From a virus, in the IMG/VR virus record IMGVR_UViG_3300010368_004129, positions 1 through 30,750 of that record: a DNA stretch of 30,750 nucleotides. One strand, 5' to 3'. This document shows, piece after piece, positions 6,807 through 29,892 of the stretch. The notes beneath the pieces are model-generated. The model was not told the origin of the DNA. It ran no database searches and worked only from the letters and a program-made list of their open reading frames with translations. Position numbers and translations under genes: made by a program. Numbering within the stretch: position 1 is the first letter of the stretch; each line of letters opens with the position of its first letter.

Positions 6807-6808
6807 CC

Positions 6809-8698: not shown

Positions 8699-9211
8699 AT
8701 GGACAACTACACCCAACTTGCAAATAAAATTCTCAACGAGAGTATGGATAGCTCGAGACCTAGCAGTGATACAGCATTAAGTTATATGGAGGATCAAGAA
8801 TCTCCATCAGATGGACTACAAGCCATCTTACAAAAGTATCCAAGTGAAGTAGAGGATCTCAAAAATAGTGGAGAGTTTGCTGATGAGCTGTATGATGAGC
8901 TATTTGAATTTTATCTTGATAGTGGTGAGATGCCTTATGGTGTAGCAAAAGCTAGAACAGGGGATCCATATGAGTGGGTACATGCTAAATTAGATGAGTT
9001 GGGTGTGTTTAATGATGCCGAGCACGTTGAAGATAATCAAAATGCTATAACTCCTGATGATTTAAAAACTCTCGAGACTGTCAAAGCACTAGCAGGCGGT
9101 AAAGCAGATGGAGGCCTTTTTAGCAATCCTGAAAAACAAATACAACAAGCGTATGGTCAGATGCTTACCAAGATATCCAAGCAAATGAAAAACGTAGCTA
9201 AGAAGATGTAA
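8699..9211 (+). CDS. Putative capsid-packaged phage protein, 170 aa
   Basis: Function unknown. The N-terminus MDNYTQLANKILNE|SMDS has the layout of a T4 capsid-targeting sequence: about 14 residues ending in hydrophobic-x-Glu, after which the gp21-type protease would cut. The middle (ELYDELFEFYLDSGEMPYG then AKARTGDPYEWVHAKLDELG) is an acidic helical segment with conserved aromatic and Gly positions. The C-terminus (KQIQQAYGQMLTKISKQMKNVAKKM) is a basic helix. It is the first of four late genes, 8699 to 12421, that share this N-terminal layout, and it has its own late promoter. It could be a prohead core or internal head protein. Confidence 0.75.
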   Translation: MDNYTQLANKILNESMDSSRPSSDTALSYMEDQESPSDGLQAILQKYPSEVEDLKNSGEFADELYDELFEFYLDSGEMPYGVAKARTGDPYEWVHAKLDELGVFNDAEHVEDNQNAITPDDLKTLETVKALAGGKADGGLFSNPEKQIQQAYGQMLTKISKQMKNVAKKM

Positions 9212-9213
9212 TT

Positions 9214-9549
9214 ATGAATAAGTTTTTAAGAAGAATATACGAACTCGATTTGATCAATGAAGAAGATCAAGCACCACCTCCTCCAGGTGTTGCTGATGTC
9301 AATGATGTAACGCCTCAAGAGATTGATGATGCTCCTGAAGTAGAAGCTGAGGTTGGTACGTTATCCCCAGAGAGTGAGGTAATGTACGTTAGATTACTAA
9401 AGAAGGCTCTAGTTGTAGATCTTGACCCTGAGGATATTGACAATATTAATAGCTTAGCGGAGGTTAACGAAGAAAATGCTAAGCAGGTGCTAGGAGATAT
9501 CCTTATAATTATAAAGAGTTACTCAACTGAAATCGATATAGAAATTTAA
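9214..9549 (+). CDS. Small acidic putative head/core protein, 111 aa
   Basis: Unrecognised, strongly acidic protein. It starts MNKFLRRIYELDLINE|EDQ, a basic/aromatic amphipathic segment ending in I-N-E like the targeting peptides of its neighbours. Residues 20-45 are Pro/Glu/Asp-rich and probably disordered. Residues 50-111 (LSPESEVMYVRLLKKALVVD and on) look like a compact helical domain. The ATG is 2 nt after the previous stop and 2 nt separate it from the next gene, so it is cotranscribed. Small acidic proteins are typical of prohead core components, but this is inference. Confidence 0.7.
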   Translation: MNKFLRRIYELDLINEEDQAPPPPGVADVNDVTPQEIDDAPEVEAEVGTLSPESEVMYVRLLKKALVVDLDPEDIDNINSLAEVNEENAKQVLGDILIIIKSYSTEIDIEI

Positions 9550-9551
9550 AT

Positions 9552-10604
9552 ATGAGCTGGAAATCATTAACACAAGTATACTTACAAGAGGCTGCCTTAA
9601 AGAACGTTACTAAACTAACACGGCAACAACTAGTCGGTGAGGACGTCTCAATATACGCTAAAGAAAACGATAAAACAGAGCATATAGGTGACGTGAGTAG
9701 AGAGTACTATGATAGTGTTCTCAAAAATAGAGTTGAGCTAGGTTCGCATGAAAATGTTAGCTTACGTAAGGTAGTAGAGCAGCGTTTAGATAAATGTAAC
9801 GGTAATATTGATAACAATGCTGACATATGGCAAAATTATATGTTAGAAGGTGCTTTCGATATGTCAGCTGATAATTTTGATAGTAGTGAAGACTATTTAC
9901 TATCTCTAGTTGAGCAGAGTACACCGTTTTACCTAACTGATTTTATAAAAGCCAACTGGCCTGCTGCAGATGTAGTAAACAAATACTATAAATCTGCATT
10001 TACCAGTATGCCACAAGCTCCAGTTTTTGGCAGCCCGGGCGCAGGTGAATTATACTTAGCTTATTTTGCAAATGGCAGTAAGCCTAAGAAAGGTGATTTG
10101 AGTGTAGGCGGAGTTGAAATTGAACTTAAAGGGCCAGGTGGTCGTATTTTTAAGACACCAAAAATAGTTAATGATTTTAGCGACCTGCAGAAAGATTATA
10201 AAGATGAAGATGAATTATTAGATAATATTACTGAATATATTGCTAAACTATCACAAACTGCGCCACATAAATCATTGATTCGCGAAATGGTAGCATTATT
10301 TAAAGAATCAATGATTGAAGAGCATGCCTACTTCAGAGAACGCGGAAAGATGAGACCAGGTAACGAGCTCGTCTATATAGGGGGTTTAGCTCAATTATAT
10401 GCATATAAGCAAGTACAGGGATTTGACATCTTTATGTCCTTCTCCACACAAAAAGATGGTAGAATACTCTTCAAGCCAGTAAATATGAAGAGTATCAATA
10501 ATCTAGTAGGGCTGCATAAGCTAATTACAAGAGACACATTCTATAAATTTGGTGTTAACCGGGATGGTTCCGGTTGGTCACTAGATAGAACTCAATTAAA
10601 ATGA
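9552..10604 (+). CDS. PD-(D/E)XK nuclease-like protein with capsid-targeting N-terminus
   Basis: A 350-residue protein with a probable restriction-endonuclease fold. GELYLAYFANGSK (Glu166), KKGDLSVGGVEIELK (Asp182, Glu191, Lys193) and the following GPGGRI form the E...D...ExK active-site pattern of PD-(D/E)XK enzymes. The N-terminus MSWKSLTQVYLQE|AA ends in L-Q-E|A, the consensus T4 gp21 cleavage site, so the enzyme is probably carried in the head and delivered with the DNA. The target is unknown; host DNA and competing phage DNA are candidates. The stop overlaps the ATG of the ligase-NMNAT gene as AAAATGA, suggesting linked action. A TTTAAATATG string at its start overlaps the ATG and is not a spaced promoter. 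Confidence 0.75.
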   Translation: MSWKSLTQVYLQEAALKNVTKLTRQQLVGEDVSIYAKENDKTEHIGDVSREYYDSVLKNRVELGSHENVSLRKVVEQRLDKCNGNIDNNADIWQNYMLEGAFDMSADNFDSSEDYLLSLVEQSTPFYLTDFIKANWPAADVVNKYYKSAFTSMPQAPVFGSPGAGELYLAYFANGSKPKKGDLSVGGVEIELKGPGGRIFKTPKIVNDFSDLQKDYKDEDELLDNITEYIAKLSQTAPHKSLIREMVALFKESMIEEHAYFRERGKMRPGNELVYIGGLAQLYAYKQVQGFDIFMSFSTQKDGRILFKPVNMKSINNLVGLHKLITRDTFYKFGVNRDGSGWSLDRTQLK

Positions 10605-12421
10605 AAACATTCAAGCAATACTATAACACTATCCTAAATGAAGGTGGTGCCGCAGGTCATATGGCTCATCCATTTGACCTACCTCAAGTTAAGACAGGTA
10701 AGGATTTAGTGAGCTTCTTCGATAGAGCTGTTAATTCTATTAAGACAAACCCGCCTTCTGTTAAGATTGATGGTGTAAATGCTAGTTTTAGACTCATTGA
10801 TACACCTGAAGGTAAGGAATTCGCACTCGACAGAGGTAGTATGAAGCCTCTAGATCTTCAAGGTATCACAATTGATAAACTTTTAGCTAGATTTGGTGAG
10901 GGGCATGGAATGGTTAATGCTGGGCGTACGCTATTGACCATTATGAATGAGTCTATAGATGAAATTACACCCGAACTTAAGCAATTAGGTATGTGGGATA
11001 ATGCAAATAGATTTTTTAATACAGAGTTCGTGCAAGGTACTACTAATGTACTACAGTATGATAATGATTTCCTCGCGATCCATGGTATTAACGAGTTCTA
11101 TCAAGCGACTCCTAAGAGAAGAGCCAGTAAAGAGGTTGAGTACAATCCAAAGGTACTTGATTCACTTATTGAAAAGCTTGATAAGACTGCAGCAGAATAT
11201 AATTTTAAAGTATATGGTAGTGTACCAGCCACTTTAACTAAGCAGCCTAACTACGCACACGTGCTTAGTAAGAACTTTAACGTTAATGTAGGTACAGAAA
11301 GAATTTCAAAGCCCTTGCGCGATTATTTAAATGATGCTAATAACCCATTCGGGGATAAGATCACATTACAGGATGGTAAAAAGGTAGGAGCTCTTAGTAA
11401 GTTCGTCTATCTACAGATTCTTAACGGTGTACCACTCGATACATTTATAAAAGATGAAGCTGATCACCAAAAGGCTATTGATGGAGCGGCAATATACCAC
11501 GCTACTAGACTTTTAGGTGATGAGCTGCTAACAACCTTAACATCCGACATGGGTGACGTTAAGTACCACGAAGGTATTGTTATAAGAGACCCAAAATTTC
11601 ATAGCTCACCAGTCAAGGTTACCGGTGAATTCATTATTGGCGGTATGTCATCACAGTTTAGAAAAGAAGATGAAGAAGTGACGCCTTACTATTCTAATTA
11701 CGTTACAGAACCACCAGTCAGAGGAGATTTCTTCGGTAGAGGTCGATTTAAACAAAGTGTTGATGCAATAGGAGAGAGCTTTGATGCTGTCTACAACAGT
11801 ATAATGCTAAGAGAGTTTGAAGAGCCTGACAATGAGCGCGTTGTTGTTATATACCCCGGTAGATTTCATCCGTTTCATAAGGGTCATTCATCAATATACA
11901 ATAAATTGACGCAAAAATTTCCTTATGCCGACGTATATATTACTACTTCTGGTAAAACTGATGAAGATACATCACCATTTACGTTTGATGAAAAGAAAGA
12001 GATGATGATATCAGCTGGTGTCGATGCTGATAAGATCGTTCAAGTAGCATCTCCTTATATTGCTAAAGAGATAACTGAAAGATATGATGGAGATAATACT
12101 AAAATCATCTACGTAGTATCTCAGAAAGATATGGAGGGTTCATCAGCTAGATTCAAATTTGGCACTAAGCGAGACGGTACACCTAGCTACTTTCAACCTT
12201 TTGAGAGTGTGGGTGAGAGCGAGTATATGTCAAAGCACGGCTATGTTGATGTACTACCGACTATGGACTTCAAGATTAACGATAGAAGCGTAAGAAGTGC
12301 TTCAGAAATCAGAGATATGTATAAGAATGCTGATGATAGTCAAAGAGAAGATCTTATCCATAGTTTATACGGTTCTAAGGACCAGAAGATAAAAAATATC
12401 TTCGATAGCAAGCTAGTTTAA
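10601..12421 (+). CDS. ATP-dependent nucleic-acid ligase-like / NMNAT-like fusion protein
   Basis: A 606-residue two-domain protein. The N-terminal part is a covalent nucleotidyltransferase: motif I KIDGVN with Lys55 as the adenylated residue, a motif III-like FNTEFVQ near 139-145, motif IV EGIVIRD at 324-330 and a Lys pair near 337-339 as motif V. The C-terminal part, from about 412, is a HIGH-type nucleotidylyltransferase like NMN adenylyltransferase: PGRFHPFHKGH at 419-429 and a SASEIR segment near the end that replaces ISSTxxR. Such a protein could seal nicks or RNA breaks and make NAD or another dinucleotide. The N-terminus MKTFKQYYNTILNE|GG is very like the T4 internal-protein targeting peptide. 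The substrate (DNA or RNA) cannot be told. It overlaps the convergent gene at 12418 by 4 nt. Confidence 0.85.
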   Translation: MKTFKQYYNTILNEGGAAGHMAHPFDLPQVKTGKDLVSFFDRAVNSIKTNPPSVKIDGVNASFRLIDTPEGKEFALDRGSMKPLDLQGITIDKLLARFGEGHGMVNAGRTLLTIMNESIDEITPELKQLGMWDNANRFFNTEFVQGTTNVLQYDNDFLAIHGINEFYQATPKRRASKEVEYNPKVLDSLIEKLDKTAAEYNFKVYGSVPATLTKQPNYAHVLSKNFNVNVGTERISKPLRDYLNDANNPFGDKITLQDGKKVGALSKFVYLQILNGVPLDTFIKDEADHQKAIDGAAIYHATRLLGDELLTTLTSDMGDVKYHEGIVIRDPKFHSSPVKVTGEFIIGGMSSQFRKEDEEVTPYYSNYVTEPPVRGDFFGRGRFKQSVDAIGESFDAVYNSIMLREFEEPDNERVVVIYPGRFHPFHKGHSSIYNKLTQKFPYADVYITTSGKTDEDTSPFTFDEKKEMMISAGVDADKIVQVASPYIAKEITERYDGDNTKIIYVVSQKDMEGSSARFKFGTKRDGTPSYFQPFESVGESEYMSKHGYVDVLPTMDFKINDRSVRSASEIRDMYKNADDSQREDLIHSLYGSKDQKIKNIFDSKLV

Positions 12422-12729
12422 ATTTTTTCTATTGAAGTAATATTTGGGTAGTACGGTGTATTACTTAGCACCACTTTGACTTTATCACCGGGCTTATAAT
12501 ACTCCCTAAGCTTTGGATCAAATCCAAATTGATCTTTCATACCCCACTCGCTTTTTGTATCATGGCCTTTAAAGGTCATGACCAATGCTTTACCAAACTT
12601 ACCAGGTGATCTTTGAATTTGTGAAATGCCAGAAATTGTAAGAACTAACTCTTTCCCGAGATTCTTATTAAGAAAATCATCATGAATGATTGCGGCACTC
12701 TCTTCAAAATATTGTTTAAATTTTATCAT
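12418..12729 (-). CDS. Small putative capsid-packaged protein, 103 aa
   Basis: Unrecognised. The frame is open to 12786, but the ATG at 12729 is preferred: it lies 4 nt beyond the stop of the upstream gene and yields MIKFKQYFEE|SAAI, nearly the same targeting peptide as in the 26706 and 10601 genes. The rest alternates beta-like hydrophobics with a KPGDKVKVVL segment near the end, which could be an OB or SH3-like barrel, but that is a guess. It is the second gene of a short minus-strand late unit inside the plus-strand late block. Its stop overlaps the stop of the ligase-NMNAT gene. Confidence 0.7.
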   Translation of the reverse strand: MIKFKQYFEESAAIIHDDFLNKNLGKELVLTISGISQIQRSPGKFGKALVMTFKGHDTKSEWGMKDQFGFDPKLREYYKPGDKVKVVLSNTPYYPNITSIEKI

Positions 12730-12733
12730 ATAA

Positions 12734-13396
12734 CTAAGCTCCTTCGAATCCTGTATCTCTAGCGGCGGGATCTTCACTGATATCATCGAACTTCAAAGTC
12801 CTGATACCTCCATCTTCATCCTCTGCATCTTCTACTTGCTCATAATTATCCTGATAATCGAGGTGGTGGAATACTGAAGAGAGATAATCTGATGCCTTTG
12901 TAATTTTTGCTGCAACCCAACCATCTAAAGAATCTACATTGGCTATATGGTCGAATAATTTCGATGAATATTCAGCGGCTTTAAGTAGGTCAGCTCTCGC
13001 CATATCAACCTCACCATCATAATCGTCCTGGTCGTGGTCGTGATCACAGTCATCATCTATCTCACCAGCTTGTATATATACTGTCTCATCTTCAGCAACA
13101 CCACGAACATTTGGTATATGACGTACACGTGAATGGGGTGTAGTACTACCAATTGATGTTACTCTAATCATAGAGGGTGTACCGTGACCTAGACCAAGAT
13201 CGTCCTCTTCAGGAATCTCTTCATCATCATTAGGATTGACATAAGTCGGATCTGACCTAAACTTCGGACCACCTCTACCATCTGAATCTGCATCTCCTTT
13301 ACGGAGATGACCGCCCTTTGTATAGTGTTTACCTTTTGGAGCTTCTTTTGCTTCCATGTACGCCTCATATATGAGTTCAGATTCTACCTTAGCCAT
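12734..13396 (-). CDS. Putative virion protein with acidic His/Asp-rich region, 220 aa
   Basis: Function unknown. The N-terminus MAKVESELIYE|AYMEA fits the targeting-peptide pattern (I-Y-E|A). Residues 20-75 are Gly/Lys/Asp-rich and low in hydrophobics. Residues 114-132 form an Asp/His run (DDDCDHDHDQDDYDGEVD) that could bind metal. Residues about 135-180 (ADLLKAAEYSSKLFDHI then LDGWVAAKITKASDYLSSV) form a helical hairpin with a Trp-Val-x-x-Lys-Ile-x-x-Ala signature that I associate with phage capsid/scaffold-type proteins. It has a perfect TATAAATA late promoter, back to back with that of the 13429 gene. Confidence 0.75.
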   Translation of the reverse strand: MAKVESELIYEAYMEAKEAPKGKHYTKGGHLRKGDADSDGRGGPKFRSDPTYVNPNDDEEIPEEDDLGLGHGTPSMIRVTSIGSTTPHSRVRHIPNVRGVAEDETVYIQAGEIDDDCDHDHDQDDYDGEVDMARADLLKAAEYSSKLFDHIANVDSLDGWVAAKITKASDYLSSVFHHLDYQDNYEQVEDAEDEDGGIRTLKFDDISEDPAARDTGFEGA

Positions 13397-13401
13397 AATA
13401 A

Positions 13402-13409
13402 TATTTATA
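13402..13409 (-). promoter_or_regulatory. Late promoter, perfect TATAAATA (5 nt to ATG)
   Basis: On the minus strand TATAAATA ends exactly 5 nt before the ATG at 13396. It matches the T4 late consensus at every position and diverges from the plus-strand element at 13418. Confidence 0.8.
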
Positions 13410-13417
13410 CTATGTAT

Positions 13418-13423
13418 TAAATA
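13418..13423 (+). promoter_or_regulatory. Late promoter element (TAAATA, 5 nt to ATG)
   Basis: TTAAATA ends 5 nt before the ATG at 13429. The 32-nt gap between the two divergent genes holds nothing but the two late elements. Confidence 0.65.
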
Positions 13424-13428
13424 ATTAT

Positions 13429-13854
13429 ATGGAATTTGATAAGTTATATAACCAGCTCATGGAATCCTTACAAGAGGATGCAAAGAAGTGTTGGGACGGG
13501 TATGAAAAGGTTCCCGGTATTCCGCGTAGTAAGCAAGGCTCATGCAAGAAAAAAACTGAAGGTGAAGAAGTACCTGAAGAAGATGCTGAGTATAGAGGCA
13601 GGAAGGTAACTCTTAATAAGCCCACCAGAGGTGATGTTAAGAAGTTTAAGGTATACGTAAAGGATCCTAAGACTGGTAACGTTAAGAAGGTTAATTTCGG
13701 ACATGGTGGCACGTCTGCTAAGAAGAGAGGTGAGAAGACAATGAAGATTCGTAAGAGTAATCCAAAGGCTCGTAAATCTTTTAGAGCTAGACACAAGTGT
13801 GATCAAAAAAAAGATAGAACCACTGCAGGTTACTGGTCATGTAAGAAGTGGTAA
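13429..13854 (+). CDS. Basic Cys-containing phage protein (DUF5872-like), putatively packaged
   Basis: A 141-residue, strongly basic protein. The N-terminus MEFDKLYNQLMESLQE|DAKK resembles the targeting peptides of its neighbours. It is followed by KKCWDGYEKVPGIPRSKQ and GSCKKK, then a basic domain (YRGRKVTLNKPTRGDVKKFK, later GHGGTSAKKRGEKTMKIRK) and a C-terminal ARKSFRARHKCDQKKDRTTAGYWSCKKW block with two Cys. This arrangement is shared by many T4-like marine phage proteins of unknown role. The charge and Cys pairs suggest DNA binding, perhaps with zinc, inside the head. The Pfam name is from memory. A 15-nt-scale late promoter region precedes it. Confidence 0.78.
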   Translation: MEFDKLYNQLMESLQEDAKKCWDGYEKVPGIPRSKQGSCKKKTEGEEVPEEDAEYRGRKVTLNKPTRGDVKKFKVYVKDPKTGNVKKVNFGHGGTSAKKRGEKTMKIRKSNPKARKSFRARHKCDQKKDRTTAGYWSCKKW

Positions 13855-13874
13855 TAGAGTATAAAGCTATATAT

Positions 13875-13880
13875 TAAATA
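13875..13880 (+). promoter_or_regulatory. Late promoter element (TAAATA, 8 nt to ATG)
   Basis: TATTAAATA ends 8 nt before the ATG at 13889, so this one would leave a leader of about 3 nt if start-site spacing is as usual. Confidence 0.55.
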
Positions 13881-13888
13881 ATTCTACG

Positions 13889-14776: not shown

Positions 14777-14799
14777 GTTAGTTGTGAAAAAGAAAGAAG

Positions 14800-15432: not shown

Positions 15433-16341
15433 ATGCACTTTCAGAATGTATTACATGAAATAAGTCAGAGGTTCATATACACTATAAACTATACTAACGA
15501 TGCTGGTGAGCGGGCATATGCTTTAGTAACGACGTCACCTGAAATTGTACCAGACGAGGCGGTATCTGAAGTGTTGAGTACTACAGATCTCAAAGACAGT
15601 GCAGGTCTCGAAGAATTCGTCTTCTGGGACCTTTTTACTTCAACTGTATTACGTCTACCAGTACAGGGACGTGCTATTAGCTTTACATTTAGCAAGCTAG
15701 ATTTATTTCCCGTTCAAGATCCTGAAGATCTCCTGCATATTACGGACCAGGTTGCTATAGATAATTATAATGACGAGATTGTTAGTATACATAATAAGCG
15801 GAGGCAGGCTATTATAGATATACATACAGAATTAAGTACTGACTATAAGATGGTATTCACGGAAAAGGAGATAATGTATTATATAAACCTCATTAATACT
15901 CACTACTTTGCGGAGTATGAACCACAGCAAACATCATATCCAATAAAGTTGTGTATGTTACTCAAGAGTACTCCCTATAAGCTTTTAAGAGGCGAGGTAG
16001 TAGAGCAGGATTTTAATACAGCTAAAGATCAGTGGATGTTAGTTATCAAGCATCATATTGAAAAAGCTAAGAATCAGTTAGATAGTGAAGCAGCTTCATT
16101 AGATAAGGAGGCTGATACATATGATTGCGATTTAGAAGAGATTGAAATTATAAAAACTTTACTCGATGATATTCCGGAAGAGTTTGTAGATGAGCTAGAT
16201 GAATGTGGTACGTATAACGATCTGCTCGAGACGTGGCCGCCACTCTTACTACCAGCTCCGCCGTTTATCATCGACCAGCCATCAGGTATGAATGTTTTTG
16301 AGAAACTTAAAAACCGGATCGAGCGGAAATTTTATGATTGA
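15433..16341 (+). CDS. Unknown late protein, 302 aa
   Basis: I do not recognise this protein. It has a beta-like N-terminal part (FIYTINYTNDAGERAYALVTT), a central helical region with DQVAIDNYNDEIVSIHNKRRQ, a long acidic coiled-coil-like segment (EKAKNQLDSEAASLDKEADTY...DLEEIEIIKTLLDDI) and a Pro-rich end (WPPLLLPAPPFIIDQP). An upstream TTG at 15400 keeps the frame open, but ATG 15433 is chosen because of the late element 5 nt before it. It follows the fibre-like gene and overlaps the aminotransferase gene by 8 nt, linking structural genes to the cassette. A fibre assembly or virion role is plausible only by position. Confidence 0.7.
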   Translation: MHFQNVLHEISQRFIYTINYTNDAGERAYALVTTSPEIVPDEAVSEVLSTTDLKDSAGLEEFVFWDLFTSTVLRLPVQGRAISFTFSKLDLFPVQDPEDLLHITDQVAIDNYNDEIVSIHNKRRQAIIDIHTELSTDYKMVFTEKEIMYYINLINTHYFAEYEPQQTSYPIKLCMLLKSTPYKLLRGEVVEQDFNTAKDQWMLVIKHHIEKAKNQLDSEAASLDKEADTYDCDLEEIEIIKTLLDDIPEEFVDELDECGTYNDLLETWPPLLLPAPPFIIDQPSGMNVFEKLKNRIERKFYD

Positions 16342-20178: not shown

Positions 20179-20179
20179 T

Positions 20180-22342: not shown

Positions 22343-23153
22343 AAGAATTATAATTTTAGGTAACGGTAATTTAGGTAAATATTTAGAGCGGTATTTAAGT
22401 AAGCTTTACTCAGTTACAGTGTATGATAGAAGGCATTTTAATGCTATGTTCTTTTCTGATTCAGAGTTTTTTAAACGTAATATTAAATCAGGTGATGTAG
22501 TAATTAATAGTGTAGGTCTTTTAAAACCAAATATTAAGTCGCAGGAAGCTGCATGGGAGGTAAATGCTGTATTTCCTCAAATTATGCAATCTATATGTGA
22601 AGATAATAATGCCAACTTTATACATATATGCAGTGATTGCGTCTTTAAAGGAGATAAAGGTAAGTACCTGGAAATTGATGAGCCTGACTGCAACGAAGCC
22701 TACGGTATATCAAAAAGCCAAGTAACAGAAGGTACTATTATACGTACATCATTTATAGGTAAGTATGGCGGCTTACTTAAATGGGTATTAGATAGCTATG
22801 AGCTCGGAGCCGAAGAGATCACCGGTTATGATAACTGTATATGGAATGGTGTTACAGCTCTAGAGCTATGTAAATATATCACTTTAATTATTGATGCAGA
22901 TGATTTCTGGGACGGGGTTCAGCACTTTCATACACCCGGCGCCATCTCGAAGTATAATCTATGTAAATTGATTAGTGAGATTTACGGTTTAAATATTACT
23001 ATCAACCAGGTAGAAGCTACTGATATAAGTGGTACTACAATAAGCAATAAGCTCGATAGAACACTTGCTAGCACACGACGCTTACCATATGTACCTACCT
23101 TCGAGCAGCAGCTTAAGGAGCTTAAATTATATGATAGTAAACAGTCACAATGA
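22335..23153 (+). CDS. RmlD-like NAD(P)-dependent sugar reductase
   Basis: A 272-residue SDR similar to dTDP-4-dehydrorhamnose reductase. GNGNLG at 9-14 binds NAD(P), HICSDCVFKGDKG near 97-109 holds the catalytic Ser100 with the usual S-D-x-V-F-x-G run, and YGISK at 123-127 is the YxxxK site. The domain ends in a short region (PTFEQQLKEL). It would reduce a 4-keto nucleotide sugar, consistent with a deoxysugar. Start ATG at 22335 overlaps the aminotransferase by 8 nt; its end overlaps the amidinotransferase by 23 nt. Confidence 0.85.
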   Translation: MDKRIIILGNGNLGKYLERYLSKLYSVTVYDRRHFNAMFFSDSEFFKRNIKSGDVVINSVGLLKPNIKSQEAAWEVNAVFPQIMQSICEDNNANFIHICSDCVFKGDKGKYLEIDEPDCNEAYGISKSQVTEGTIIRTSFIGKYGGLLKWVLDSYELGAEEITGYDNCIWNGVTALELCKYITLIIDADDFWDGVQHFHTPGAISKYNLCKLISEIYGLNITINQVEATDISGTTISNKLDRTLASTRRLPYVPTFEQQLKELKLYDSKQSQ

Positions 23154-24225
23154 ATGGGATCAATTAGAGGAAGTTATCGTAGGCGATGGCTTTCCAACCT
23201 CCCTACCTCTACTCGATTATTCGTTTAAATTGTTCTTTCATGAAAACCTTTGGGATGAAAAACACTATGAATTTGGCGATCAGACTATTCAGAAATGGCA
23301 TTGTGAAGAGCATGCTGAAGATTTAGATAAGTTTAGTTACCTTCTACAGTCACTAGGTGTAAAGGTCAGACGTCCTAAAAAGCCTAAAAAACTAAGCAAG
23401 GTTAAGACCCCTTTATGGGGCAGTACTATTCACCCCGCTCTCAATGTAAGGGATATGGCTATGGTGGTTGGTGATACTATTATTGAATCTCCACCTACAT
23501 GTAGATACAGATATTTTGAGAACGATTATTTACATCATTTATTTTTAGAATACTTCAAGCAAGGCGGTAGGTGGATACAAGCTCCTAAACCTCTAATGAC
23601 CGATAATAGCTTCGACCTATCGTGGATTGATGAAGAGGATGGCAAGCAATATTACCAGAGTATTAAGCAAAAAGAACATTATATGGACTGCGGTCTAGAG
23701 ATAATGTTTGATGCTGCTAATTGTGTCAGACTCGGTAGCCATATATTAATGAATGTAGCTAATAAGAATCAGGAGTTAGGAGCTAAATGGTTGCAGCAAA
23801 CTCTAGGTGATAGATATAAGGTACTCACTACATCAGTTGCAGATTCTCATATTGATTCATCATTCTTACCGTTACGACCAGGCTTAGCTATTATCACAAA
23901 GGAGTATGTAAAGGAGAAGCTTCCTACAGAATTACAGTCATGGGATTTAGTCTATATACCTATGAAGCAGAGAGCTCAATCTGAAAAAGAAGCACAAGGT
24001 ATTAAGCTAGCGTCTCCTAGAATAGAACTAAACGTATTCTCGATCTCGCCTGAACTTATTGTATGTCACCCCCAGTATGAGGTAGAGTTAAATAGAGCTC
24101 TATCTAAGTACGGTATAACAGCAATAGGTACACCGTTCCGGCATTGTGAGATTTTTAGTGGTGCACATCACTGCACAACATTAGACATAAGACGGAAAAG
24201 TAAATATGAAAACTACTTCGAATAA
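23131..24225 (+). CDS. Glycine/inosamine-type amidinotransferase
   Basis: Transfers the amidino group from arginine to a primary amine, leaving ornithine and a guanidino compound. The 364 residues have the fold and catalytic triad of the AGAT/StrB1 family: NVRDMAMVVGD at 105-115, Asp194 in IMFDAANCVRLGSH, His240 in SHIDSSFLPLRPG and the nucleophile Cys348 in SGAHHCTTLDIRR. Relatives act on glycine (creatine pathway) or on scyllo-inosamine phosphate (streptomycin). ATG 23131 is chosen because AAGGAG lies upstream at 23115-23120, one of the few Shine-Dalgarno sequences seen here; the open frame extends to 23065. Within a sugar cassette, an amino sugar or aminocyclitol is the likelier acceptor, but glycine is not excluded. 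Confidence 0.88.
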   Translation: MIVNSHNEWDQLEEVIVGDGFPTSLPLLDYSFKLFFHENLWDEKHYEFGDQTIQKWHCEEHAEDLDKFSYLLQSLGVKVRRPKKPKKLSKVKTPLWGSTIHPALNVRDMAMVVGDTIIESPPTCRYRYFENDYLHHLFLEYFKQGGRWIQAPKPLMTDNSFDLSWIDEEDGKQYYQSIKQKEHYMDCGLEIMFDAANCVRLGSHILMNVANKNQELGAKWLQQTLGDRYKVLTTSVADSHIDSSFLPLRPGLAIITKEYVKEKLPTELQSWDLVYIPMKQRAQSEKEAQGIKLASPRIELNVFSISPELIVCHPQYEVELNRALSKYGITAIGTPFRHCEIFSGAHHCTTLDIRRKSKYENYFE

Positions 24226-24970
24226 TGCAATAACTTGCTCTACTGATTATAACTACATTCACTACCTATATAAACTGGTAGATAGCTTATATGTAAATAA
24301 TACAGACGCTGCTGTTTTTGTACGTCTTGTAGATTTTACACCGGCTCAATTTGAAGAAGTAAAATCTAAGATAACAAATAAGAAAGTAGAATATATACTC
24401 GATGAACCTAATCTCAGTAACCGTAAAGATATATTAAAAGATGTTGATCATGCGATGCATTATATTTACGGTGTAGATGTATGTAAAACAGGTAGTAAGA
24501 ATATTAAGAGACTACTTTATAGTAAACGTAGTGTATATACATGCCATAGCCGCTTTAAAACAATTAGTATGCTACTGAATAAAGGTTACAGTACTGTATT
24601 GAGTTTAGATGTGGACACTGTTGTTATAAGAGACATAAACCATATGTTTAATAATCATGAGTATGATGTATCTATTGTACCTACATATATAGACGGTAAT
24701 ACCGAATTATGGTATAATGAAGGTCTCTTACATATAAGCAATACCCCTCAATCAGTTTTATTTTTTAAAGAAGTCGAAGACTTTATTTTTGATAGCGACA
24801 GGTATTTTGAATGGAATATAGATTCAGAAGCTCTTGGCGAGTGTTTTGCAAGAAGACAAAATTTAAGAGTAGGTTATCTAGATGATGCTTATAAGGATAA
24901 AGAGTTCGACGATGATTCGTATATGTGGTCTGGTGACAGTATAAACAAATACAACGATAAGTTTAAATGA
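24206..24970 (+). CDS. Glycosyltransferase, GT-A/GT8-like, second of cassette
   Basis: A 254-residue probable nucleotide-sugar transferase. VLSLDVDTVVI gives the DxD motif at 135-137, preceded by CHSRFKTISMLLNKGY, the pattern before the DxD in GT8-like enzymes. YNEGLLHISNT and FEWNIDSEALGECF follow. No membrane segment. The start overlaps the amidinotransferase stop by 20 nt, and the stop overlaps the next gene by ATGA. Substrates unknown. Confidence 0.75.
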   Translation: MKTTSNNAITCSTDYNYIHYLYKLVDSLYVNNTDAAVFVRLVDFTPAQFEEVKSKITNKKVEYILDEPNLSNRKDILKDVDHAMHYIYGVDVCKTGSKNIKRLLYSKRSVYTCHSRFKTISMLLNKGYSTVLSLDVDTVVIRDINHMFNNHEYDVSIVPTYIDGNTELWYNEGLLHISNTPQSVLFFKEVEDFIFDSDRYFEWNIDSEALGECFARRQNLRVGYLDDAYKDKEFDDDSYMWSGDSINKYNDKFK

Positions 24971-25755
24971 ACAAAATAATACACCAGATGTGGGATAAAG
25001 GTACCCCACCAGATCAACTAGTTGAGTGGAGTAAAAAGCTTAAAATAATCCATCCAGATTTTAGGTATATGTTTTGGACTCTAGAGGATATGTATGATTT
25101 TATTGCGACTAAGTATAGTTGGTTTTTACCTACATTCGAGGCATACCCTGAGTTAATACAGAGAATAGATTCCTTCAGATATTTTATCATATATGAATAT
25201 GGCGGTTTATATATCGATTTGGATATTGAATGTTTTAAGCGATTAGATATTCTTTTAAAGGACGATTGTGTATTATTTCAAACACATCCGGAATATCAAA
25301 TTAAAAAAATAATAGATGATGATAACCGAGAGCATCCTTTACGTAAACACTTTCCATTACAGAAGCTTAGGAAAGGTTATTTTTTAACTAATAGTATTTT
25401 TTATGGTAATTGTGGTCATAAGTTTTTTAAGAGGTGTTTAGAGAATCTTGAAGAGAGTTATGAGGAAAGTAAGAGATACAGGTTTACAGAATTTGACTTC
25501 TTAAATAAGTCAAAGGTATGCAATACACACGCAATGATGGCAACAAGTGGTGGGTTTCTAACTAGAATGTTCTTTAAATATGGTAAGGTATATAACGTGC
25601 AGGACTACAGTTACAGCTTTTTTGAACCGTATGAGCATACCAGGCGTAAAGAAATTTTATTAAATAAAGAAGCTTTTGATAAAAAGGATCTTTATGGGAT
25701 GCACTGGAATTTAGGTAGCTGGATAAATTTAGAGGACTCGGAATATAAAATATGA
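24967..25755 (+). CDS. Glycosyltransferase, GT32-like (OCH1/capsular type)
   Basis: A 262-residue enzyme with the GT32 sugar-binding region containing DXD. The N-terminus NKIIHQMWDKGTPP is the IPKIIHQxW motif, and RIDSFRYFIIYEYGG (67-80) with LYIDLDIEC (81-89) gives the DxD at 84-86. Family members use UDP- or GDP-sugars in capsule, lipid A or mannan synthesis. HWNLGSW at the C-terminus is the usual His-containing close. It is coupled by ATGA on both sides to glycosyltransferases, so these three act in series. Confidence 0.88.
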   Translation: MNKIIHQMWDKGTPPDQLVEWSKKLKIIHPDFRYMFWTLEDMYDFIATKYSWFLPTFEAYPELIQRIDSFRYFIIYEYGGLYIDLDIECFKRLDILLKDDCVLFQTHPEYQIKKIIDDDNREHPLRKHFPLQKLRKGYFLTNSIFYGNCGHKFFKRCLENLEESYEESKRYRFTEFDFLNKSKVCNTHAMMATSGGFLTRMFFKYGKVYNVQDYSYSFFEPYEHTRRKEILLNKEAFDKKDLYGMHWNLGSWINLEDSEYKI

Positions 25756-26468
25756 AGGTGACTGATGTACATGTTTGCTATGTTATTAACGATAACAAGG
25801 ATTTTATAGATCTTACTATTAAGTCTGCTAGACAATTAAAAAAATTCTTTAGGTCTAAACAGCATAATTTAAAGATTTATGCGTTAAGTGAAATGATATT
25901 GGACGGGTTACCATCGTTTATTGAAAATATAGTTTCACCTCATAAAGGTATACCACTACTATGGCAACGTATGTATATACCGGAGCTGATTAATTCTGAT
26001 AAATGCATCTTCATGGATAGCGATACTCTAGCATATACTTGTATTAGTAAGTTATGGGATATTGATATTGGAGACAGTTATATAGCACTAGCTCCACACT
26101 ATTGCATGCATACTATCCAGGAGATGCTTAACCACTACGGTTTAAATGAGTTTCCACTATACAGAGCCAAGGGAGACGTACAGCAATATTATAATTGCGG
26201 TGTGTCTGTTATAAACAGTAGACTATGGAGAGACCTGAGCCTCATTGAAATACCACTAAAGTATTATGAGAGTATTAAAAGTACATCACATTGGAAAAAT
26301 GATGAACCTACATATAACGTCTGCTTTTCTGATAAGATATTTGAGCTCGATGAAACGTGGAATTACTATCCTATAGGTACTTACAAGAGAGCAAACATTG
26401 TACACTACTACGGTACGTACATTAAAGGTAAACCTTTTCATAATGAATTTGCTATTCATCCAGACTGA
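25752..26468 (+). CDS. Glycosyltransferase, GT8-like, last gene of cassette
   Basis: A 238-residue member of the GT8 (lipopolysaccharide/glycogenin-like) type. CIFMDSDTLAY gives the DxD at 89-91, QQYYNCGVSVINSRLW is the conserved N-C/S-G-x-x-x-x-N segment, and NIVHYYGTYIKGKPF holds the C-terminal metal-binding His. The stop at 26468 is followed by a perfect late promoter, so the cassette ends here. Confidence 0.85.
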   Translation: MKVTDVHVCYVINDNKDFIDLTIKSARQLKKFFRSKQHNLKIYALSEMILDGLPSFIENIVSPHKGIPLLWQRMYIPELINSDKCIFMDSDTLAYTCISKLWDIDIGDSYIALAPHYCMHTIQEMLNHYGLNEFPLYRAKGDVQQYYNCGVSVINSRLWRDLSLIEIPLKYYESIKSTSHWKNDEPTYNVCFSDKIFELDETWNYYPIGTYKRANIVHYYGTYIKGKPFHNEFAIHPD

Positions 26469-26476
26469 TATAAATA
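26469..26476 (+). promoter_or_regulatory. Late promoter, perfect TATAAATA (6 nt to ATG)
   Basis: TATAAATA directly follows the previous stop codon and ends 6 nt before the ATG at 26483. Confidence 0.75.
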
Positions 26477-26482
26477 ATTTAT

Positions 26483-26680
26483 ATGAAAGAAGAAATTCAA
26501 TTAAACATTACAGATCTAGCAGAATATCAAACTCACTTCGCAACTGATGTTAGTTTGTTTCTTGAAAAGGATAACAAGTCTGCAGCTACGAGAGCGCGTA
26601 AATCGCTACTAGAAATTTCTAAGCTATGTAAAGAGATTAGAAAACAAATTCAGGAGATTAAGAATAGCTCTACAGCTTAG
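26483..26680 (+). CDS. Small histone H1-like protein
   Basis: A 65-residue protein whose second half (NKSAATRARKSLLEISKLCK and EIRKQIQE) resembles the Hc1-type bacterial histone family signature (Lys-x-Ala-Ala-x-Arg-x-Arg-Lys...Lys-x-x-Lys-x-x-Arg-Lys). Two helices with regularly spaced Lys/Arg suggest DNA binding. Its first 30 residues are acidic, which is unusual. It has a perfect late promoter and lies next to putative packaged proteins, so it might be a head nucleoid protein. Confidence 0.65.
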   Translation: MKEEIQLNITDLAEYQTHFATDVSLFLEKDNKSAATRARKSLLEISKLCKEIRKQIQEIKNSSTA

Positions 26681-26694
26681 TACATAAAACTGCT

Positions 26695-26700
26695 TAAATA
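26695..26700 (+). promoter_or_regulatory. Late promoter element (TAAATA, 5 nt to GTG)
   Basis: CTTAAATA ends 5 nt before the GTG at 26706. The adjacent ATG at 26704 is out of frame, so spacing and frame agree on GTG. Confidence 0.65.
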
Positions 26701-26705
26701 ATAAT

Positions 26706-27125
26706 GTGAAATCGTTTAAGCAATTTTTTGAAGCAAACAAGCCACTTGGCTTAGTAGAGACGCTCCATTTCCAAGATTTAGGTCCCATTGAAGCTAAAGT
26801 TGATAGCGGCAATGGGGCTTATAATGTACTGCACGGACAAAACATCCAAGAAGTTGCAGACGGTCAAATATCATTTGATACCGTGAATGGTAAAACATTA
26901 ACTATGCCAGTTAGAGAGTATATTGATATTAATATAGGCTCTGGTAATATAGAGACAAGACCAGTAATCGAACTTGATATAGAGATTGGTGATGATAGCT
27001 TCCCTAAGACAAGATTTTCTGTAGGTGATAGATCATCTAACGAATATAAGATTCTATTAGGTAAGGACTTTATCGAACAGCTAGGCGGCTTAATCGATGT
27101 AAGTGCTGAAAACAACCTCGATTAG
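26706..27125 (+). CDS. Retropepsin-like/RimK-associated protease-family protein, putatively packaged
   Basis: A 139-residue protein with the clan AA aspartic-protease-like layout: IEAKVDSGNGAYNVLHG (Asp33-Ser-Gly35 in the DTG position), a beta-rich middle with RPVIELDIEIG, and the closing VGDRSSNEYKILLGKDFIEQLGGLIDVS that matches the R..(N/S)...LLGR.F motif of the family. The N-terminus MKSFKQFFE|ANK is almost the T4 internal-protein targeting peptide with F-F-E|A as cut site. It begins at GTG 26706. Possible roles are a peptidase delivered into the host or a non-enzymatic member. It overlaps the convergent gene by 4 nt. Confidence 0.72.
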   Translation: MKSFKQFFEANKPLGLVETLHFQDLGPIEAKVDSGNGAYNVLHGQNIQEVADGQISFDTVNGKTLTMPVREYIDINIGSGNIETRPVIELDIEIGDDSFPKTRFSVGDRSSNEYKILLGKDFIEQLGGLIDVSAENNLD

Positions 27126-27652: not shown

Positions 27653-27658
27653 ACCGAT

Positions 27659-27664
27659 ATTATA
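27659..27664 (-). promoter_or_regulatory. -10 element TATAAT, 6 nt to ATG of the 27652 gene
   Basis: Minus-strand TATAAT lies in the 24-nt gap after the folE stop and ends 6 nt before the ATG. No good -35 box is seen at 16-18 nt. Confidence 0.55.
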
Positions 27665-27676
27665 ATAGTGTTCCTA

Positions 27677-28327
27677 CTATCTACCCCAGTCGTTAACAAA
27701 CGTATAGAACTCACTACGCGTAGATGTATCATTCAGAAAATCCCCACTCAGTTTTGAGGTCTTCATCTCACATCCATCATGCTTAATACCGCGGAGGCAT
27801 GCGCAAGTATGAGATGCAGAGATCATTACTGCAACACCTTTATTACCTTCACATACTTCATCAATTGCTTTATGAATCTGAGTAGTTAGACCTTCTTGAA
27901 TCTGCGGACGTCTAGCATAATGCTCTACAATTCTATTCAATTTACTTAGACCGATAACTTTACCATCAGCAGAGGGTAGATAAGCAACGTGACACCTACC
28001 AGTAAATGCTAGGTGGTGATGTGAACATAAACTCTTTACAGGAATACCACCCTGAAATACCATCCCGTTATAGCCATCTGAAGGGAAAGCTGTAATATTA
28101 GGTAGTTCATTATAGCAGCCGGCTGCAATATCATTTACATAGGCTTTAGCAACACGCTTAGGTGTACCATCACTATTAGGATCGTTTCTCCAGTCAATAC
28201 GTAAAGCATCTAGAAACTTTTCATAAGCTTCTGTAGCGTTAAGGATAACCTGTTGTTTTTCGTCATCGCTGAGCGGCATATTACCATTAGCGGTTGGTAG
28301 CTTGGTTAGTTTAATTCTATCGGACAT
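27677..28327 (-). CDS. folE: GTP cyclohydrolase I
   Basis: Converts GTP to 7,8-dihydroneopterin triphosphate, the first step of folate and of 7-deazaguanine (queuosine/preQ0) synthesis. The 216 residues have zinc ligands Cys101 and His104 in CSHHHLAFTG and Cys175 in HTCACLRG, plus TPKRVAKAY near 55-63, PVKSLCSHHH, SKLNRIVEHYARRPQIQE (129-146) and the closing TRSEFYTFV, all as in the family. The frame is open to 28456, but ATG 28327 with TATAAT 6 nt upstream is preferred and gives normal length. With queD nearby, the phage probably makes a 7-deazaguanine derivative, often used to modify phage DNA. Confidence 0.96.
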   Translation of the reverse strand: MSDRIKLTKLPTANGNMPLSDDEKQQVILNATEAYEKFLDALRIDWRNDPNSDGTPKRVAKAYVNDIAAGCYNELPNITAFPSDGYNGMVFQGGIPVKSLCSHHHLAFTGRCHVAYLPSADGKVIGLSKLNRIVEHYARRPQIQEGLTTQIHKAIDEVCEGNKGVAVMISASHTCACLRGIKHDGCEMKTSKLSGDFLNDTSTRSEFYTFVNDWGR

Positions 28328-28333
28328 ACCCTT

Positions 28334-28361
28334 ATTATATAGTATAGTCCAACGAAAGCAA
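28334..28361 (-). promoter_or_regulatory. Sigma70-type promoter of folE, leaderless spacing
   Basis: TTGCTT (28361-28356), 16 nt, TATAAT (28339-28334), then 6 nt to the ATG at 28327. It overlaps by position the divergent late promoter region of the 28378 gene. Confidence 0.7.
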
Positions 28362-28367
28362 TAAATA
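28362..28367 (+). promoter_or_regulatory. Late promoter element (TAAATA, 10 nt to ATG)
   Basis: ATAAATA ends 10 nt before the ATG at 28378, an exception to the 5-nt rule. It sits directly behind the folE -35 box on the other strand. Confidence 0.5.
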
Positions 28368-28377
28368 TATTTACAAT

Positions 28378-29892
28378 ATGAGTGATTTCTTAAAATTAGT
28401 CCAGGAAGCGACACCGCCACATGTAATTGATCATTATGATAAAAATGCAAAGACAAAGAAGGGCGGTATAATTAATAAAGTTGTGAGTGGTGTGCAGAAA
28501 GTATCGAGTGCTATAGATACCATTGAGAAGTATGGTACAGGTAAGTGGGATATCAATGATACTCTGCAGAAGATATTAACAAAACAACTAGATAAGAGTA
28601 CGGATAAGATGGGATTATTTGGTAAGTCAAATTATAGTCAAATTAAACTCGGAGCTGATATCACTGACAAAATTAATAATTATACCGATGGCGAGGACTA
28701 TGACGTTAAGGCTGGTATTGAGAGAGCTAAAGCTGGTATTGAGAGGTCGCGTGAGGGTATGAGCGGAATGCGCGATACTTTAGATGGGGAGTCGCAAAAG
28801 ACTGACCCAGTTACAGGTGAGTCTACATTAAATGGTGGTTTTCTGAACATGATTAGTGAAGCTACGGCCGTATTAGATAGAGATAGAGATGGTGAGTTTC
28901 AGAATACAGCACAAATGAAGGGTGATAAGGAGGGTAAGTCTGCACAATTAAAGGTCTGGGACGTGTTAAAGAGTGCTTTGGATTTACCAGAAGATGCGCC
29001 TATGAAACTTACTCACCCAGATCCTCAATTGAGAGGTAAGAAAGAATTCGACAGAAGAATTGACTGGATTGCAAAAGGTGTACCTGCTTTTCTTAAGAAT
29101 GTTAAAGAGGAATACCCAGATATACCATTTATCTTTAAAGATCATAGTAAAGAGGATGGATTGTCAGTCTCAGCAATTGAGCAGGACGAGGAAGAGTTCA
29201 ACTTTAACGATACTACTAGACAGAATTGGATCAAAACCCTAGGTGCAGAAAAAGCAGAGAAAATTGTTAGAGGGCTTGTAGATATATATCCCGGCGATCG
29301 TATTGTGTTTGATGAGCCAGCACAAGACGGGCCGGTAGAAGACGAGCCAGTAAAACTAACGAGTGAAAATGCTTTATTCGAATTAGCGGGAAGAACAAGC
29401 TTTGGTGCTAAAGGTATTCAATGGACATTAAAGCCGAAATCGGCAGATGTAGGTAATATACTCGATAAGCGTGGTATAAGGTATCTGACGTACCTATTAC
29501 AAACAAATGATAACGCGTTTAGTGCACCAGAGAGTAATAAGGGTATTATATATGCATATGATAACAATAACGAGGTTATTAATCCAATAACTACTGATGG
29601 CGTCCAGTTTCAGTGGAACGGTCAAGAAGGTCTATATACTCTCAGCACCGATAATAAAGAGTTAATGGGAGTTAAATATAGTGAAGGTCAATTCCCTATT
29701 AATAAAGACGAGGTTATGCCGTTAACAGATGGTAAGCATATATTATATAGACCTGATGAAAATTCAGTATATATGAAATTTAAGATAGTACAGGATATGA
29801 ACAACGCTGACAAGTACCTGATAGATAAGGATAAAGGAGTTGCAGCGACCAAGGAAGATATAGCAGAAGCAGAAGCAGTTGGAGACAAGTGA
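28378..29892 (+). CDS. Large putative internal virion protein, 504 aa
   Basis: Unrecognised. The N-terminus MSDFLKLVQE|ATPP ends in V-Q-E|A, the gp21-type site, so this is probably packaged. A second potential site (M-I-S-E|A) lies at 158-162. Residues 111-123 hold a short repeat, KAGIERAKAGIER, in a helical region. The middle has DRDRDGEF and a charged stretch. The C-terminal half (from about 320, ENALFELAGRTSFG then GIQWTLKPKSADVGNILDKR) alternates beta strands and ends with an acidic helix. No enzyme motif was found. Late promoter upstream, no coupled gene downstream. Confidence 0.75.
   Translation: MSDFLKLVQEATPPHVIDHYDKNAKTKKGGIINKVVSGVQKVSSAIDTIEKYGTGKWDINDTLQKILTKQLDKSTDKMGLFGKSNYSQIKLGADITDKINNYTDGEDYDVKAGIERAKAGIERSREGMSGMRDTLDGESQKTDPVTGESTLNGGFLNMISEATAVLDRDRDGEFQNTAQMKGDKEGKSAQLKVWDVLKSALDLPEDAPMKLTHPDPQLRGKKEFDRRIDWIAKGVPAFLKNVKEEYPDIPFIFKDHSKEDGLSVSAIEQDEEEFNFNDTTRQNWIKTLGAEKAEKIVRGLVDIYPGDRIVFDEPAQDGPVEDEPVKLTSENALFELAGRTSFGAKGIQWTLKPKSADVGNILDKRGIRYLTYLLQTNDNAFSAPESNKGIIYAYDNNNEVINPITTDGVQFQWNGQEGLYTLSTDNKELMGVKYSEGQFPINKDEVMPLTDGKHILYRPDENSVYMKFKIVQDMNNADKYLIDKDKGVAATKEDIAEAEAVGDK

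Follow-up and report, generated by a model that had tools for sequence, protein, structure and literature searches.

Putative T4-type capsid-targeting sequences at the start of nine unrelated proteins from an uncultured marine T4-like phage

The internal proteins IPI, IPII and IPIII of phage T4, together with Alt, begin with a capsid-targeting sequence that is cut by gp21, with propeptides of 10–19 residues, and T4 mutagenesis placed the targeting residues of IPIII, aromatic or hydrophobic, at positions 4 and 7, according to the accessible parts of the literature. In T-even phages this signal has led to the detection of at least 10 Ips at the internal-protein loci, and an anti-restriction role is known for Ip1-3 (PMC12373910, available in part). 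Head-packed proteins processed by a prohead protease are also described, in the excerpts available, for phage P1 and the giant phage SPN3US; the locus analyzed here is similar in its inferred packing into the head and processing by a prohead protease, but these are other phages with other proteases.

We analyzed a stretch of 30,750 nt (the window), a fragment of a phage genome with 39 called genes, from the uncultured marine T4-like bacterial virus IMGVR_UViG_3300010368_004129. The original prediction held that nine unrelated proteins encoded here carry tag-like N-termini, and this was confirmed: all nine N-termini were found at start codons, and the proteins (A–I) fall into nine separate blast clusters. 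Seven of the genes (A–G) form a contiguous cargo island at 8699-13854 with UvsY, UvsW and sigma-55 alongside. The features are given below, with a slash after the last Glu of each tag.

8688-8693, plus strand: late-promoter core TAAATA, 5 nt before A
8699-9211, plus strand: A, 170 aa, function unknown; tag MDNYTQLANKILNE/S at 8699-8740
9214-9549, plus strand: B, 111 aa, function unknown; tag MNKFLRRIYELDLINE/E at 9214-9261
9552-10604, plus strand: C, 350 aa; tag MSWKSLTQVYLQE/A at 9552-9590
10601-12421, plus strand: D, 606 aa, NMNAT/cytidylyltransferase-like domain and putative ligase-like domain; tag MKTFKQYYNTILNE/GG at 10601-10642
12418-12729, minus strand: E, 103 aa, function unknown; tag MIKFKQYFEE/S at 12700-12729, exact T4 spacing
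12734-13396, minus strand: F, 220 aa, function unknown; N-terminus MAKVESELIYE/AY at 13364-13396
13402-13409, minus strand: late promoter TATAAATA, 5 nt before F
13418-13423, plus strand: late-promoter core TAAATA, 5 nt before G
13429-13854, plus strand: G, 141 aa, basic, phrog_7595; tag MEFDKLYNQLMESLQE/D at 13429-13476
26695-26700, plus strand: late-promoter core TAAATA, 5 nt before H
26706-27125, plus strand: H, 139 aa, GTG start, PF05618-type protease; tag MKSFKQFFE/A at 26706-26732
28378-29892, plus strand: I, 504 aa, function unknown; tag MSDFLKLVQE/A at 28378-28407

The tags are 9–16 residues long. We compared them with a strict rule taken from the published T4 mutagenesis, namely an aromatic residue at position 4, a hydrophobic residue at position 7 and a hydrophobic-x-Glu end. 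Five of the nine (A, D, E, H and I, the last with exact spacing) satisfy the full rule. B does so in part, with F4 and an I-N-E end but a non-hydrophobic residue 7, and its orthologues also keep a hydrophobic-x-Glu end; G, shifted by one (F3), likewise complies in part. The rule is failed by C, which has W3, L6 and Y10 instead, and by F, which lacks an aromatic residue near its start. The hydrophobic-x-Glu site is present in all nine tags, for which it was the selection criterion, and the small residue said to follow it (A, G or S) in seven, B (E) and G (D) being the exceptions. The weakest cases in the set are C, F and I.

The nine proteins had also been regarded as late, and the promoters bear this out. 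T4-type late elements lie 5 nt before A, F, G and H and 10 nt before the start codon of I, while B, C and D trail A in a tight same-strand series and E likewise trails F. Exact copies of TATAAATA show no enrichment (3 in the window, 8.1 expected); the late signal consists in the constant distance at which the shorter core stands.

Tags are retained among relatives of the individual proteins. Orthologues of A begin with MDKFTQFANKVLME, MDKFTVKASGILNE, MDKFTRTANHILSE, MDKFTELANNILTE and MDNYTQLANKLLKE, relatives of H with MKTFKQFFE, MISFKIFYE and MQSFKLFYE, and those of I with MSNFLKLVQE and MSSFLKKINE, whereas the body of G bears other tags in its relatives, such as MKKFKQYIDE in C48C1. G matches phrog_7595, of unknown function, at E 1.2e-16, and H matches PF05618 with 32.4 bits (cut-off 27). 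In E, the start at 12729 on the minus strand is preceded by a 6-nt Shine-Dalgarno match and the L028 orthologue begins at the same Met with the same tag, so the longer reading frame starting at 12786 was rejected. F represents a second class of N-terminus (E/AY), in which L-I-(F or Y)-E is followed by A or N and then Y in most F orthologues; the class was defined only after F had been seen, and F together with its orthologues supplies four of the 10 members. The N-terminus of I resembles that of UvsX of HTVC008M.

The two largest proteins of the island were studied further. Across seven aligned relatives of C, M1, W3, L6 and Y10 in the N-terminus and E166, D182, E191 and K193 in the body are invariant, and Pfam and PDB sequence searches with C gave no match above the cut-off. 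D contains an NMNAT/cytidylyltransferase-like domain (PF01467, E 3.4e-8; in a profile search of the PDB, NMN adenylyltransferase 2qjt, E 1.1e-5) and has only three distant matches in phage records. Its start lies at 10601, in an ATGA overlap with C; the gene-finder call at 10661 was rejected because aligned relatives retain the in-frame N-terminal extension. D orthologues are 67–93% identical, and their tags persist with varying length and a constant N-E/GGAAGH junction. Predicted structures were of low confidence (pLDDT 54.8 for C and 60.2 for D), and Foldseek with them found no match at E ≤0.001; the top rows for D included many weak hits to nucleotidylyltransferase folds, with T4 RNA ligase 1 no higher than rank 38 (E 0.077). 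Since these predictions gave no significant support, the PD-(D/E)xK-like nuclease of C and the additional ligase-like domain of D remain putative, inferred from motifs only.

The window N-termini resemble those of T4 IPI, IPII, IPIII and Alt in position, similar length, in part of the set the aromatic residue at 4, the hydrophobic-x-Glu end, the unrelated bodies behind them and the T4-type gp21, gp22 and gp23 of the window's relatives. They are unlike them in belonging to distant uncultured marine phages, in being longer and more variable, some with the aromatic residue at 3, and in having predicted enzymes among the cargo and seven tagged genes side by side in one island. As at the T-even internal-protein loci, the genes are polymorphic with only the leader in common, but the window proteins are larger, no likeness of their bodies to the Ips was noticed and the hosts are others. 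A gp21 homologue was found in the relatives G017 and G004, in the latter with GELNHP and SSR-x-LG; none lies in the window, itself only part of a genome. Moreover, G004 has a gp22 rich in cleavage-type sites and a gp23 with LNE/A near residue 61.

Position-specific matrices were dropped as too noisy with 2–9 training tags, and the rule from published residues was adopted for this reason. A matrix trained on T4 IPII and IPIII placed none of the 39 window proteins over threshold (D was miscalled in this set), while one trained on the window ranked gp61.1 second in T4, without IPII or IPIII among the listed T4 rows, and gave one control-phage protein a score of 18.5. Under the strict rule, positives made up 59 of 1677 N-termini of T4-like phages, but 4 of 625 N-termini from the five control phages (p 2.5e-5) and 59 of 7752 internal Met positions; orthologues enter the pooled p-values repeatedly. 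In the window, 4 of the 39 called genes were positive (p 2e-4), or 5 after correction of the D start (p 1.2e-5), both against the internal Met positions. S-PM2 was without enrichment under this rule (1/256), and the control phage P1 showed no significant enrichment. T4 lysozyme and, in all likelihood, UvsX of HTVC008M are false positives. A broad rule (aromatic at 3–5) was weakly enriched overall and not enriched in C48C1 (p 0.32) or S-PM2 (p 0.57). It yielded 20 clusters in which two or more different tagged N-termini occur, C being divided over two; the tail sheath and a 1661/2001-aa pair, which look like chance, were discounted, as were 15433 (uncertain) and C48C1 63080 with HTVC008M 114973 (weak), leaving by judgement about 15 tagged families.

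The DNA pattern of the tag matched at least 120 stretches in IMG/VR, compared with one for a codon-permuted control. Among the matches listed, 80 loci were read and contained 86 tag matches in 44 unrelated families, with 84 of the 86 near ORF starts (within 30 codons of an in-frame stop). A, G or S, not part of the pattern, follows the Glu in about 19 of 44 among the matches listed, against a background of 19%. Tagged bodies elsewhere include DUF6267, GNAT and HD, and L008, G017, G006 and G004 contain runs of unrelated genes, each with its own tag. Among the matches listed, 18 tagged records reach at least 35 kb; gp21 is present in 10 and gp23 in the same 10, with no base rate from untagged contigs. 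Tag and body change independently across orthologues.

Published virion proteomics, as far as the texts are accessible, detected tagged cyanophage SAM hydrolase, kinase and NMNAT-like enzymes, and virions are reported to contain the tagged NMNAT-like proteins of S-SCSM1, S-SZBM1 and the T4-GC190 family; the available portions of these accounts do not mention the tag. The window shares cytidylyltransferase/NMNAT-like cargo and tagged N-termini with the virion enzymes of S-CREM2, S-SCSM1, S-SZBM1, S-SM1 and T4-GC190, and the tagged cargo of S-CREM2 also adjoins UvsY, UvsW and sigma-55, but D differs from the cyanophage NMNAT-like enzymes in its extra N-terminal domain. The strict rule, fixed before the S-CREM2 list was seen, was met by 4 of 26 non-structural or hypothetical virion proteins against 3 of 167 undetected ones (p 0.007), and by none of 26 structural or lysis proteins. 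A T4-spacing rule (5/26 against 1/167) was written after seeing the list and was not used as a test. The other 22 of the 26 fail the strict rule, including gp155, gp156 and gp160 beside the tagged cytidylyltransferase, and therefore a protein can be present in the virion without the tag.

We conclude that the window N-termini are very probably T4-type capsid-targeting sequences, with core binding, cleavage and injection inferred from T4. This central claim of the original prediction is supported by the enrichment of the rule, the permuted control, the independence of tag and body, the head genes of the relatives and, in other phages, the partly accessible virion proteomes. In this model, short tags that are aromatic at about position 4 would bind the scaffold core late in infection, and otherwise unrelated proteins would thereby be incorporated into the prohead; gp21 would cut after hydrophobic-x-Glu, freeing the cargo inside the capsid, and the cargo would exit together with the DNA when the next cell is infected. 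That the tags are cut at the predicted Glu, that the proteins are in this phage's own virions and that they enter the host is only inferred.

It is very improbable, and was already disfavoured, that the shared starts arise by chance or translational bias, with Lys/Phe/Glu-rich N-termini aiding initiation or forming amphipathic helices without sorting. The loose form (aromatic at 3–5 plus hydrophobic-x-Glu) is common, occurring at 495 of 7752 internal Met positions, and is thus weak proof taken alone, and UvsX and lysozyme satisfy even the strict rule; however, strict-rule enrichment in T4-like phages and not in the five controls, the near-empty permuted search, the preference for A, G or S after Glu and the association of the tag with virion detection in S-CREM2 all oppose this explanation. 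A leader cassette spread by duplication or recombination and retained without function is hardly credible: four neighbouring L200 genes do have near-identical tag DNA, but in the window it differs in codons and length from gene to gene, and tags persist across the D orthologues.

Import may also be correct and delivery not, the tagged proteins being core, assembly or DNA-condensing parts that work inside the head, which we consider rather unlikely. Many tagged bodies are indeed small and basic, for example G; the bodies of 81 metagenome proteins among the matches listed have a median net charge of +0.6 per 100 aa against −1.6 for T4-like proteins, and loss of IPIII disturbs T4 head assembly (PMC9026906, accessible in part). 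Nevertheless, C, D, H and the DUF6267, GNAT and HD bodies resemble enzymes whose substrates are nucleotides, nucleic acids or proteins, and T4 Ip1-3 and Alt are injected, according to the portions of the sources available.

The data are best read as T4-type capsid targeting that carries enzymes in a distant marine clade. The shared tags on nine proteins suggest that, besides its DNA, the phage packs a set of enzymes and may inject them. Proteins that enter the host with phage DNA can work ahead of any phage gene expression, as a first move against host defences, and to our knowledge few are known outside T-even phages. The tag is one possible reason why purified cyanophage virions contain NMNAT-like enzymes, kinases and SAM hydrolases, and it predicts peptides beginning right after the tag Glu, for example after MKNFSSFLTE in S-CREM2 gp154, in existing mass-spectrometry data. 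We think it likely that T4-like phages worldwide use the tag as a general, readable zip code for the capsid, that dedicated marine cargo islands of about 7–12 tagged genes, in the window by UvsY, UvsW and sigma-55, load an enzyme arsenal, and that dozens of injected effector families can be listed from metagenomes by the tag alone. A tag that predicts capsid cargo would allow injected proteins to be found without cultures.

All nine N-termini that the original prediction had read as T4-like capsid-targeting tags (↓, predicted cut after hydrophobic-x-Glu) were found in the sequence, each at a start codon, and their bodies are indeed mutually unrelated, each in its own homology cluster. The start of gene E (12729) is backed by a Shine-Dalgarno match (6 nt) and an orthologue, and that of D (10601) by an ATGA overlap with C and by in-frame extension in aligned relatives. 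In keeping with the description of the nine as late proteins, the starts of A, F, G and H are preceded by late elements. The N-terminal domain of D, with motifs KIDG, EGIVIR and VKVTG, is inferred to be ligase-like and its second domain is NMNAT/cytidylyltransferase-like; C, with invariant E166, D182, E191 and K193, is a putative PD-(D/E)xK-like protein. H matches PF05618, in Pfam a putative ATP-dependent zinc protease, and no function was assigned to A, B, E, F, G and I.

The window (G000), an IMG/VR record of 30,750 bases, encodes homologues of T4-type gp46/gp47-like proteins, sigma-55, UvsW and UvsY. Megablast of bases 9000-30000 against 50,697 phage records gave no match; among these records D had three distant, partial matches and C none. 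Close kin were found among uncultured contigs. The search for the prohead protease gp21 succeeded in both longest relatives used, G004 (93,039 bases) and G017 (80,613). In G004, gp21 conserves GELNHP and SSR-x-LG with T4 gp21, the scaffold core gp22 contains 13 sites of the form hydrophobic-x-Glu before A, G, S, N or D, and in the major capsid protein gp23 the sequence LNE↓A occurs at residue 61, where T4 gp23 shows LTE↓A at 65, the T4 cut site. Other features of the window are as follows.

16292-26468, apparent block of sugar/surface-modification genes; only three members were Pfam-searched (aminotransferase, 16292; radical SAM/SPASM, 17188; PIG-L deacetylase, 21093)
26483-26677 (+), histone H1-like Hc1, 65 aa, PF07432 (E 7.7e-17), lying just before H; its own start codon is preceded, at 5-6 nt, by a late element
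27680-28327 (-), GTP cyclohydrolase I, PF01227, on one side of I
30013-30639 (+), 6-pyruvoyl tetrahydropterin synthase, PF01242, on the other side of I; with PF01227 possibly, by inference, a 7-deazaguanine DNA-modification pathway

According to PMC9026906, targeting of T4 IPIII depends mainly on residues 4 and 7 and processing on residues 8 and 10. We therefore built rule R from these roles (position 4 aromatic, position 7 hydrophobic, hydrophobic-x-Glu with Glu at 9-17), taking starts from a simple in-house gene caller. Ten T4-like genomes or contigs supplied 1677 N-termini, of which 59 passed, compared with 4 of 625 in the control phages T7, T5, SPO1, N4 and P1; internal Met positions passed in 59 of 7752 cases. 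S-PM2 showed no enrichment. Pooled p-values are optimistic, because orthologues recur across G000, G001, G004 and G006. The T4 internal proteins served as positive control: IPII and IPIII start MKTYQEFIAE, IPI MKTFKEFTSTTTPVSTITE↓A, and a 682-aa protein taken to be Alt MELITELFDE↓D. We think that rule-R-like starts on T4 lysozyme and HTVC008M UvsX are false positives. The starts of T4 gp61.1, likewise rule-R-like (NC_000866 18966-19130; hypothetical, 54 aa; MKTFKEFIKE↓D), and of the DNA end protector gp2 (76061-76885; MAIFQIINE↓S) are possible unrecognised tags within T4 itself.

Rule R passes, and TAAATA occurrences at spacing 4-6 before start codons per number of genes (G, uncultured contigs)
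Genome	Rule R	TAAATA
G000	4/39	8/39
G001	4/39	10/39
G004	7/131	26/131
G006	3/50	12/50
G017	6/94	30/94
C48C1	7/204	0/204
HTVC008M	7/197	13/197
T4	10/268	1/268 (peak 23-29)
KVP40	10/399	0/399
S-PM2	1/256	0/256
T5		0/184
SPO1		0/201

The T4-type late-promoter core TAAATA lies 5-6 nt upstream of start codons in the window (7304, 8699, 13396(-), 13429, 14815, 15433, 26483, 26706), G001, G004, G006, G017 and HTVC008M. With the T4 spacing from core to transcription start, transcription would therefore begin on the start codon and these late mRNAs would be leaderless. Among the papers listed by a literature search, the one consulted has the word "leaderless" in a reference title only.

A degenerate 30-base DNA pattern for MK[T/S]FK[Q/E][F/Y][hydrophobic]xE matched at least 120 IMG/VR stretches, and a control with the same codons permuted matched one. 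Among these stretches we examined 80 loci with 86 matches, 84 of which have an upstream in-frame stop at most 30 codons away; their 81 tagged proteins of at least 50 residues form 44 clusters. The residue after Glu, left free by the pattern, is A, G or S in about 19 of 44 (cluster-weighted), against 19% at internal hydrophobic-x-Glu sites (p 2.5e-4). Pfam was run on a single representative of 30 of these clusters: 9 matched at E 0.001, 6 with scores above the curated threshold (DPBB lytic transglycosylase-like, DUF6267, GNAT, CTP_transf_like, HD_4, DUF6321), and 21 had no match. All 18 tagged records of at least 35 kb were searched, and gp21 and gp23 occurred in the same 10, that is, in 10 of the 11 of at least 46 kb; there is no base rate from untagged contigs.

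Tag and body vary separately. Aligned D orthologues carry MKTFKQYYNTILNE, MKTFKQYYSTILNE, MKTFKNYILNE, MKTFNELYNLINE or MKSFKQFIINE, with GGAAGHMAHPFD directly after every variant, and the basic body of G follows MEFDKLYNQLMESLQE, MTFDNIVSKLLNE, MNFNDTVSHLLESFEE or, in C48C1, MKKFKQYIDE. A D relative with reversed domain order (contig L010, 10001-11620 plus upstream; G007, 21023-22687) has the called start MNLGQWLVEHIITE, which is tag-like although rule R rejects it; within the protein, LIME↓GG stands ahead of the second domain and could be a second processing site. By eye, 9 of 9 consecutive genes in L008 (8414-14005) and 12 of 14 in G017 (2319-10150) have their own tag-like start. Four adjacent genes of L200 (2357-3910), from four separate clusters, start MKTFKEYLEE (three) and MKTFKEYIRE. 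A second N-terminal class, hydrophobic-x-E↓A/N-Y, was defined once F was known, and F and its orthologues are 4 of its 10 members among the 1677 T4-like N-termini (window 12734-13396 (-); G006 13350, 25502; G017 71281; C48C1 68834; HTVC008M 109429); by comparison, 22 of the 23264 internal windows fit it, as do 2 of the 625 N-termini from control phages. Gene 89 of S-SCSM1, an annotated virion protein, starts MDSKTFNSLSE↓AY.

Published virion proteomes of cyanophages were compared with the tag. Table 3 of PMC10665884 reports 52 proteins in S-CREM2 virions, by which we split the 219 annotated genes: 4 of the 26 virion enzymes or hypothetical proteins passed rule R, compared with 3 of 167 among the proteins not detected (p 0.007); none of the 26 structural or lysis proteins did. 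The four are a SAM hydrolase (MKDFDSFLEE), an APH-like kinase (MKRFDAFLTE), a cytidylyltransferase (MKNFSSFLTE) and gp136 (MQTFSMFFSE); gp13 (MKDLHSFLTE) and the Cas9-like gp12 (RFASFMAE↓A from residue 18) were not counted. The cytidylyltransferase adjoins UvsY, UvsW and sigma-55, as does the window island. Likewise, detection in virions is reported for the S-SCSM1 NMNAT (PMC9602691; start MKSFLQFLKE↓A), the S-SZBM1 cytidyltransferase (per PMC10665884; MRFRQFIIE↓A) and, in S-SM1, the putative cytidylyltransferase T4-GC190 (PMC3037559), whose P-SSM2 member starts MKSFSQFLTE↓T, the S-SM1 N-terminus itself not having been seen. Against a link between tag and virion, however, 22 of the 26 S-CREM2 virion enzymes and hypothetical proteins fail rule R, including gp155, gp156 and gp160 from the cytidylyltransferase neighbourhood, although many of the 26 sit amid tail genes.

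The targeting-tag principle is already established for T4: according to PMC12373910, many T-even ip genes were discovered via the signal sequence, and PMC9026906 suggests that T4-like phages could package various proteins by the tag. The literature searched lacked most subscription papers and was screened in part from listings alone; within it we found no tag survey in marine T4-like phages, nothing tying the tag to cyanophage virion enzymes, and no paper from the tag letters as query.

Import into the head, the original reading of the shared tag, is well supported. Late in infection, a step with its timing basis in the late elements ahead of A, F, G and H, the tag would bring the protein to the core; gp21 would then remove it, as inferred from site conservation, and the cargo would go along with the DNA, injection being inferred from T4. 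The only part that T4 Ip1, Ip2 and Ip3 have in common is the leader, and the type IV restriction enzymes that they inhibit differ (PMC12373910); therefore anti-restriction or other early take-over work is the likeliest use of the cargo.
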